From Alphaproteobacteria bacterium (GTDB lineage: Bacteria > Pseudomonadota > Alphaproteobacteria > Elsterales > Elsteraceae): DNA of 44,498 nt. Under the pieces are notes generated by a model. That model was given only the letters and a program-made list of their open reading frames with translations, ran no database searches and was not told the DNA's origin. Shown here one piece after another: positions 22,799 to 24,277 of this stretch; position 1 is the first letter of the stretch, and the number at the start of each line of letters is the position of its first letter. Both the position numbers and the translations under genes were made by a program. The DNA lies in contig JAAFIC010000016.1 in the NCBI GenBank assembly GCA_013298565.1, positions 1-44,498 on the forward strand, in the 5' to 3' direction.

Positions 22799-24277
22799 TT
22801 AGGCGCAAAAACACTCTTTGATCTGGGCTTCAGTGACGTTGCTGCCACACAGCACAGTCGCTACCCGGCGGTTTTTGAATAACTCTGCGTGTGCAATGAT
22901 TGCAGCGACACCAACAGCGCCAGCGGGTTCAAGCTGCAAGCCTGCTTGCTGATGCACAAGGCGCATGGCTGAAATGATATGCTCATCATCAATCAGTAGA
23001 ACATCGTCCACGATGTCATACATGTCTTCCACTGCCTCGGGGATCGGTACACGCACCGCGATACCGTCTGCAATCGTATCAGCGCTCTCGGGCGTGACGA
23101 TAATTCTGTTCCGCCAAGATTTTTCCATTGAGTCTGCGCCGCGCGCGCACACACCAAGCACGCGCGTTGCGGGCGAGGCCGCTTTAATCCAGCGTGCCAT
23201 ACCGGTAAGCATTGCACCATTACCCAGCGGAATTATCACATCATCAAACACATCACCATTTGACAGTAACTCAACTGCTATTGTTCCATGCCCTTCACTG
23301 ATCTCGGGTTCCAGCCCGTCTTCTACCATCCAACCGCCAATCTGCTTGGCATAAGCTTTCGCGCAATCTTTCGCCGCGTCAAAATCAATACCTTCTAGCC
23401 TCACTTCAGCCCCCAGGGCTTTCATTCGGGCCACCTTGAGCGGGTTAGCATGGAGAGAGGCGTAAATCACGATGGGCATTCCGAATGAGCGACACGCATA
23501 GGCCATCGCTTGCCCCCAGTTTCCTGCACTTGCACACACGAGGGTCCGCGTATCGCCGCGCCTCCGCATCTCGCTCACAAAAAAGCTCGCCCCGCGCCCC
23601 TTAAAGCTGCGAATGGGGTTGGTGAAATCAAGTTTTATCGTTAGCTCACACCCTAAAGACTCAGACAAAGGCTCACAATTGTATTGCGCGGAGTGCAAAA
23701 ATTCAGGCGGGATAACACTCGCACTAAACGCTATTTGGTCGAGCGAGAGGCGATGTTTAGCCCGTGAGGCCCCCACAAGCTGTGCGTGCTCAACGATAGG
23801 GCGGATGGCATCACTGCCCACGGCACGTTCGTTCATCAAGATGCCGTTCAAGTGATCCATCTCATGCTGCACCAACTCAGACAAGTCTTCGGGCAGTCTT
23901 TCCCACAGGCGCTCGCGGCCTGTCTCGTCGAGATAGCGCAGGCTGATGCTGCTATGCCGACGCACGCGCACAACGCAATCCGGCACGCTTAGGCAATCGT
24001 CCCAAACATCAAACATCGCCTCGCTGCGCCAAGTAATCTCCGGGTTGATTATAGTAAAAGGCGTAGCGCCAAGGTTCATAACAATCACGCACTTGGCAAT
24101 GCCTACTTGCGGTGCCGCCATCGCGCGGCCAAAGCCGTTTTTCGCCCGGAAGTCTGCAAGGGTAGCATGCAGAGACGCTAGTTGTTCTGCCAACTCGACA
24201 TCGGGGAAGACAACAGGGCTGCTCGCAACTGTGAGTGCAGGATGTCCGTGCGTCAGAATGGATAAGACATGGCTCAT
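22799..24277 (-). CDS. Fusion of a divergent peptide deformylase and a PLP-dependent threonine/serine dehydratase-like enzyme
   Basis: One uninterrupted 492-residue frame with two catalytic domains. Residues 1-165 are a peptide deformylase: motif I GRAMAAPQVG (50-59, second glycine replaced by alanine), motif II DDCLS (93-97, normally EGCLS, metal-binding Cys95 kept) and motif III HEMDH (138-142, both His ligands and catalytic Glu139 kept). Residues from about 178 to 492 are a complete fold-type II PLP enzyme: SFKGRGA with the PLP lysine K226, ASAGNWGQ (249-256), a phosphate-binding loop LGNGAMLTG (351-359) and a C-terminal LCGSN (476-480). The linker carries the usual start of a dehydratase (LDQIAFSASVIPPEFLHS). 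Both active sites look competent; the substrate is unknown. The gene is more AT-rich than its neighbours, stands alone between guaA and yciB, and has its own promoter candidate. Confidence 0.9.
   Translation of the reverse strand: MSHVLSILTHGHPALTVASSPVVFPDVELAEQLASLHATLADFRAKNGFGRAMAAPQVGIAKCVIVMNLGATPFTIINPEITWRSEAMFDVWDDCLSVPDCVVRVRRHSSISLRYLDETGRERLWERLPEDLSELVQHEMDHLNGILMNERAVGSDAIRPIVEHAQLVGASRAKHRLSLDQIAFSASVIPPEFLHSAQYNCEPLSESLGCELTIKLDFTNPIRSFKGRGASFFVSEMRRRGDTRTLVCASAGNWGQAMAYACRSFGMPIVIYASLHANPLKVARMKALGAEVRLEGIDFDAAKDCAKAYAKQIGGWMVEDGLEPEISEGHGTIAVELLSNGDVFDDVIIPLGNGAMLTGMARWIKAASPATRVLGVCARGADSMEKSWRNRIIVTPESADTIADGIAVRVPIPEAVEDMYDIVDDVLLIDDEHIISAMRLVHQQAGLQLEPAGAVGVAAIIAHAELFKNRRVATVLCGSNVTEAQIKECFCA

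Follow-up and report, generated by a model that had tools for sequence, protein, structure and literature searches.

A peptide-deformylase-fold domain fused to a PLP-dependent dehydratase-like enzyme, a candidate for the breakdown of N-formyl amino acids

A single chain of 492 amino acids, encoded in an alphaproteobacterial genome, joins a peptide-deformylase-fold domain to a fold-type II PLP-dependent enzyme. The gene lies in a stretch of 44,498 nucleotides (contig JAAFIC010000016.1 of assembly GCA_013298565.1), here called the window. The fusion recurs in other genomes, both of its active sites are conserved, its deformylase half belongs to a distinct clade with a remodelled cleft, and relatives of that half are found in amino-acid operons. 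It is a real fusion, with both catalytic centres kept, and of sufficient age for its copies to have drifted apart to 54% identity.

We propose that the protein is a bifunctional catabolic enzyme, which would perform two steps in one chain. The amino-terminal half would be a metal-dependent hydrolase of the deformylase fold, re-tooled so that its substrate, in place of N-formyl-methionine peptides, would be a free N-formyl amino acid; from this it would release formate and the amino acid. The carboxy-terminal half, a putative PLP-dependent L-amino-acid ammonia-lyase of the threonine/serine dehydratase family, would then eliminate the beta substituent (OH or SH), yielding a 2-oxo acid and ammonia. 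To this general scheme, in which a free N-formyl amino acid is deformylated and ammonia is then eliminated, we assign a probability of about 60%. The likeliest substrates would be N-formyl threonine, serine or cysteine, or a close analogue; that the amino acid is threonine, serine or cysteine proper is a more tentative proposal, with the odds somewhat against it.

The fusion gene, its recurrence and its history

The gene occupies 22799..24277 on the minus strand as a single frame of 492 codons, from an ATG start to a TAA stop, and the plus strand across 22799-24277 contains many stops. Pfam places PF01327 at residues 5-153 (107.2 bits, cut-off 22.8) and PF00291 at residues 201-478 (234.5 bits, cut-off 35); with E values up to 1, families beyond these two were not found. 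This agrees with the first-pass annotation, which had read one 492-codon frame as a deformylase followed by a fold-type II PLP enzyme. The motifs it quoted are present on the minus strand: GRAMAAPQVG (residues 50-59), DDCLS (93-97) and HEMDH (138-142) in the deformylase half, and SFKGRGA with Lys226, ASAGNWGQ (249-256), LGNGAMLTG (351-359) and LCGSN (476-480) in the PLP half. The features of the gene are the following.

22799..24277, minus strand: whole gene, 492 amino acids, open reading frame from ATG to TAA
23813..24277, minus strand: peptide-deformylase-fold half, residues 1-155 (PF01327 at 5-153; structure confidently predicted)
24107..24130, minus strand: deformylase motif I, residues 50-57, GRAMAAPQ (alignment and E. 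coli mapping)
23987..24004, minus strand: deformylase motif II, residues 92-97, WDDCLS (alignment and E. coli mapping)
23852..23866, minus strand: deformylase motif III, residues 138-142, HEMDH (alignment and E. coli mapping)
23876..23878, minus strand: Glu134, subfamily-specific, at the substrate-pocket position of E. coli Ile128 (residue mapping)
23723..23812, minus strand: inter-domain linker, residues 156-185, of fixed length in the aligned fusions (alignment)
22802..23722, minus strand: fold-type II PLP-dependent half, residues 186-492 (PF00291 at 201-478; Foldseek)
23600..23602, minus strand: Lys226, predicted PLP Schiff-base lysine, in SFKGRG (invariant in the aligned fusions)

The AlphaFold2 model of the full chain, calculated from 28 sequences, has a mean pLDDT of 94.5 and a pTM of 0.93, and supersedes an earlier run with eight sequences (pLDDT 74). 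Both catalytic regions lie within confident stretches. A collapsed active site, which would have spoken against a bifunctional enzyme, is refuted as far as the model goes, both domains being predicted as confidently folded.

The window gene has guaA and an ispA-type gene as neighbours: it lies downstream of the first, at a distance of about 135 bp, and upstream of the second. No catabolic neighbours were seen around it, which counts against the catabolic reading. Elsewhere in the window, two tRNA-Asp (gtc) genes are arranged in tandem (1352-1428 and 1458-1534), adjoining a tRNA-Val gene. The source assembly (3.02 Mb, 97% complete) contains three further deformylase-type genes besides the fusion. 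It also encodes other PLP enzymes from the superfamily of the PLP half, including one that shares 47% identity with it. A deformylase-like paralogue in this genome (L007, G000:C94:40306-40800) has EGSLS for EGCLS and HEIDQ for HExDH; with metal ligands lost from these motifs, it is probably catalytically dead or re-purposed. L125 of another genome groups with it.

The deformylase-PLP fusion is present in eight further Alpha-, Beta- and Gammaproteobacterial genomes, with 54-77% identity to the window protein. A GTDB genome scan revealed it in Polaromonas, Rubrivivax, Dyella mobilis, Luteimonas saliphila and one Burkholderiaceae strain, and whole-genome searches also in G758, G1253 and G1362. 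The same join in eight further genomes rules out an assembly chimera, the error joining two genes that the first-pass annotation had named as a possible refutation. Seven of the eight align end to end with the window protein at 54-76% identity, most of them in the range of only 54-65%, and with a gap-free linker. Gln57, Cys95, His138, Glu139, His142 and Lys226 are invariant over the aligned fusions. In all fusion pairs pN/pS is below 1 in both halves, a qualitative result, with synonymous sites often saturated.

The fusion is rare, a handful having been found among 60 relatives and sets of 401, 300, 398 and 399 further genomes. A pattern search of viral contigs did not find it, and the full fusion was not found in plasmid and phage collections either; a single plasmid locus (H25) reached 80% query coverage, but at 27% identity and with annotations of a PLP enzyme and an aminotransferase. 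The Rubrivivax fusion lies in a 923-codon frame (L014), for which a triple fusion was considered and ruled out; the upstream 434 codons match no family. In the Luteimonas saliphila fusion (L016, 6001-7434), a segment of about 33 residues, located after motif II and before motif III, is out of register while the length is unchanged, as if there were two compensating frameshifts, from sequence error or damage.

In a tree of the PLP half, all fusions fall into one clade, together with a split pair and two PLP-only proteins (L018 and L019). The split pair is from an alphaproteobacterium of the same family as the window (G008), where the deformylase gene follows the PLP gene by 4 bp (L020/L076), a gene order that is the reverse of the domain order in the fusion. 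L018 and L019 are nested inside the fusion clade, showing that the PLP half can be retained without a deformylase of the subfamily. Compared with the Polaromonas fusion (L013, 5419-7464), the Comamonadaceae protein L018 (5941-6999) has no deformylase part; the two loci have flanking genes and a divergent Lrp/AsnC-type regulator in common, and the comparison suggests domain loss in the Comamonadaceae genome. PLP-only relatives often have such a divergent regulator. The simplest history would be a single fusion, followed by loss of the deformylase in some Comamonadaceae and by one split with reversal of the order. Because support within the fusion clade is moderate, the split pair could instead be close to the ancestral state. 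Horizontal transfer of the fusion gene would also fit, since the Polaromonas fusion is 77% identical to the alphaproteobacterial window protein and the PLP half of the window gene has a lower GC content at third positions (0.55) than neighbouring genes (0.64-0.70).

The deformylase-fold half

A deformylase tree was calculated from 18 subfamily members, fused and free-standing, and 27 housekeeping or paralogous deformylases; the 18 form one clade with a support of 100/100. Residues were mapped on the E. coli deformylase for numbering. The metal ligands Cys90, His132 and His136, the catalytic Glu133 and the oxyanion Gln50 (E. coli numbering) are kept in all 18 subfamily members and correspond to Cys95, His138, His142, Glu139 and Gln57 of the window protein. 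Around these residues the cleft has changed. Glu88-Gly89 is replaced by Asp-Asp (EGC to DDC) in 18/18 members; the housekeeping enzymes have Glu88 in 27/27 and Gly89 in 26/27. Ile44 has become Arg in 16/18 subfamily members and Ile128 has become Glu in 17/18, against 0/27 housekeeping enzymes in either case, and Cys129 is Leu throughout (18/18). In motif I of the window protein, Arg51 and Ala52 take the places of Ile44 and Gly45. Arg97 (E. coli numbering) is also lost in the subfamily; in the Vibrio deformylase, Arg97 and Leu125 contact inhibitors and the pocket (PMC12690207).

The three deformylase motifs of the first-pass annotation are thus all present, but the first two are non-canonical: GRAMAAPQ and DDCLS stand in place of GxGxAAxQ and EGCxS, and depart from the updated forms of these motifs as well (PMC12690207). 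For this reason the half is not filed as a canonical peptide deformylase. The score of the NCBIfam equivalog TIGR00079, 83.8 bits, lies below its cut-off of 103.95. Fold, Cys/His/His ligands, catalytic Glu and oxyanion Gln are shared with bacterial Def (PF01327, EC 3.5.1.88), from which the fusion differs by its deviant motifs I and II, by Arg51, Asp94 and Glu134 in the cleft, by its separate clade and by the attached PLP enzyme. Every fusion genome checked also has its own housekeeping deformylase, which leaves the fused copy free for another job. A housekeeping role was considered and is ruled out by the phylogeny, the motifs and the other deformylase genes in the genome.

From these changes we infer a hydrolase that is still active, but on a different substrate of greater polarity. 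A free alpha-carboxylate could be bound by Arg51 of the window protein, the conserved Arg that stands where the E. coli enzyme has Ile44. With the peptide-binding cleft remade, a free N-formyl amino acid seems a more probable substrate than a peptide; of the "N-formyl amino acid or small peptide" originally suggested, the second part has thus lost ground. The proposed reaction, removal of formate from a free N-formyl amino acid, would resemble that of the N-formylglutamate deformylase HutG and other N-formyl amino acid hydrolases. The fold of those enzymes is different from that of the deformylase half, and the Pfam search with E up to 1 did not place the 492-residue protein in the HutG family.

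The PLP-dependent half and the neighbourhoods of sister deformylases

Among the top 50 Foldseek matches, the closest folds of the PLP half are TdcB (TM 0.93) and IlvA; all 50 are PLP enzymes because this half is the larger part of the protein. With TdcB, the catalytic domain of IlvA and serine racemase/dehydratase it shares the fold, the Schiff-base lysine and the SAGN loop, with Ala for the racemase Ser. Identity to TdcB is about 25%, with the variants GNWGQ, PLGNGA and LCGSN. The half scores far below every NCBIfam equivalog cut-off listed: TIGR01127, the best for the IlvA/TdcB type, gives 201 bits (cut-off 378.75) and the TdcB model 146 (453). The models for the hydroxyectoine dehydratase EutB and the beta-hydroxyaspartate dehydratase BhcB, also PF00291 lyases in catabolic clusters, give 165 (413) and 144 (550), respectively.

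The carboxylate loop SAGN contains Ala251, at a position that we take to be that of the racemising Ser84 of serine racemase. This replacement favours an ammonia-lyase acting on L-amino acids over a racemase. Elimination of the dehydratase type requires a leaving group at C-beta, and methionine has none, so N-formyl-methionine, one of the substrates first put forward, fits poorly. Threonine-, serine- or cysteine-like products of the deformylase half are more plausible than methionine.

A class IV aminotransferase or PLP dehydratase is encoded within 1.5 kb of the deformylase gene at 7/14 subfamily loci, against 0/26 housekeeping loci, although the 14 loci are partly related and 7/14 overstates their independence. 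In Paraburkholderia, a run of genes encodes an Lrp regulator, a substrate-binding protein, the deformylase, a class IV aminotransferase, a glycine C-acetyltransferase-type enzyme and an ArgE-like deacylase; Ancylobacter has the same set plus an amino-acid ABC transporter. At L086 the deformylase is clustered with a class IV aminotransferase, a transporter and ArgE, at L084 and L085 it adjoins a class IV aminotransferase, and in Shinella it follows a branched-chain amino-acid transporter. The order in G1606 (L138, 3713-8308) is aminotransferase, deformylase, kbl and tdh, with a divergent Lrp gene. Both kbl and tdh score above an NCBIfam equivalog cut-off, and by these assignments the deformylase gene is inside a threonine-breakdown cluster; this neighbourhood points to threonine-like chemistry.

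A second natural fusion was observed in Burkholderia cenocepacia (L090, 6875-8368, plus strand), where a subfamily deformylase and a class IV aminotransferase are read in one frame; by similarity, B. arboris NZ_CP101525 has this fusion too. In Paraburkholderia (L087), the corresponding two genes are separate and overlap by 4 bp. L083 and L137 have the deformylase together with a 3-hydroxyisobutyrate-dehydrogenase-like gene and a TIM-barrel gene. In the Bacteroidota genome G1672 (L140, 4210-6605), a subfamily deformylase gene is divergent from the urocanate hydratase gene hutU. The pathway of hutU runs through formimino- or N-formylglutamate, and the G1672 deformylase might stand in for N-formylglutamate deformylase. 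Near the Bacteroidota members L028 and L139 a PLP enzyme was not found.

That the deformylase half frees an amino acid for deamination by the PLP half, as first suggested, gains support from the conserved active sites, from the split-gene version and from the Lrp-regulated sister operons with their class IV aminotransferases.

Alternative roles and significance

The same enzyme might serve in repair or detoxification. It would then clear N-formylcysteine, along with N-formyl-serine and N-formyl-threonine, derived from oxidised formaldehyde adducts (thioproline-type rings), and go on to desulfurise or deaminate the product. Fold-type II dehydratases are able to act on cysteine-like substrates, which would suit such a role. 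N-formylcysteine arises from formaldehyde and cysteine via timonacic (thioproline); its bacterial conversion has been cited and the enzyme of its turnover called "hypothetical" (PMC9814826). However, the neighbours scanned at the fusion loci included no gene of the proline-dehydrogenase-like or formaldehyde-oxidation type, and the strongest operon signal of the sister deformylases is the threonine pathway with general amino-acid uptake. Detoxification of N-formylcysteine is an attractive special case to which the neighbourhoods do not point, and we consider it unlikely.

An accessory polypeptide deformylase, such as an inhibitor-tolerant copy, might have been fused by chance to a metabolic enzyme, the two activities being unrelated. 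The separate clade, DDC for EGC and the Arg and Glu in the substrate pocket make this improbable, as do the recurrent ties to amino-acid PLP enzymes with two distinct folds. A carboxy-terminal fusion also displaces the usual ribosome-binding tail of deformylases. In favour of such a copy, position 97 is non-Arg in the subfamily, as in tolerant enzymes, and accessory deformylases are common, some with reduced susceptibility to actinonin (PMC12690207).

One half might act only as a scaffold or regulatory module; the deformylase-fold domain, for instance, might bind an N-formyl ligand and regulate the PLP enzyme. PLP-only orthologues exist, and the family is known to acquire modules, biosynthetic threonine dehydratases bearing a carboxy-terminal ACT regulatory domain. 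Nevertheless, no metal ligand or catalytic residue varies in either half among aligned fusions that have mostly diverged to 54-65% identity with the window protein, and a non-catalytic half is accordingly doubtful at best.

A link to the mimosine or TRIS pathways was also considered and dropped: the TRIS deformylase is PurU, and the aminotransferase neighbourhoods resemble amino-acid clusters. A biosynthetic enzyme, contributing for example a 2-oxo acid or dehydroamino acid to a specialised metabolite, is very improbable; its rare, patchy distribution across classes suggests horizontal spread, as might be expected of such a gene, but the neighbours scanned at the fusion loci gave no sign of a biosynthetic gene cluster, and the regulators and transporters near relatives are of a catabolic kind.

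A limited literature search yielded no description of a deformylase paired with a PLP enzyme and nothing on N-formylthreonine. Where the text of a 2025 survey of accessory deformylases mentions fusions, def-fmt is the only one (PMC12690207). Like the present protein, that Exiguobacterium fusion has a deformylase-fold domain joined to another enzyme (PMC12690207), but it combines two enzymes of translation formylation, whereas here the partner is a PLP enzyme of the amino-acid type. Both domain families are known; what looks new is the way they are paired, along with the metabolic role proposed here.

More broadly, the deformylase fold may have been recruited from translation into a clade of N-formyl amino acid hydrolases and fused to two unrelated PLP enzymes, one of the threonine-dehydratase type and one a class IV aminotransferase. 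These would form undescribed pathways of N-formyl amino acid breakdown (for example from formaldehyde adducts), with hand-over between the active sites when fused; we put this forward tentatively, at somewhat less than even odds. The usual view of peptide deformylase is that of a drug target which serves in translation, with additional copies mostly interpreted as spares or as resistance genes. If the proposal is true, some annotated deformylases would be metabolic enzymes, and the clade would offer a candidate enzyme for the turnover of N-formyl amino acids, such as N-formylcysteine, for which the enzyme has been called hypothetical (PMC9814826).
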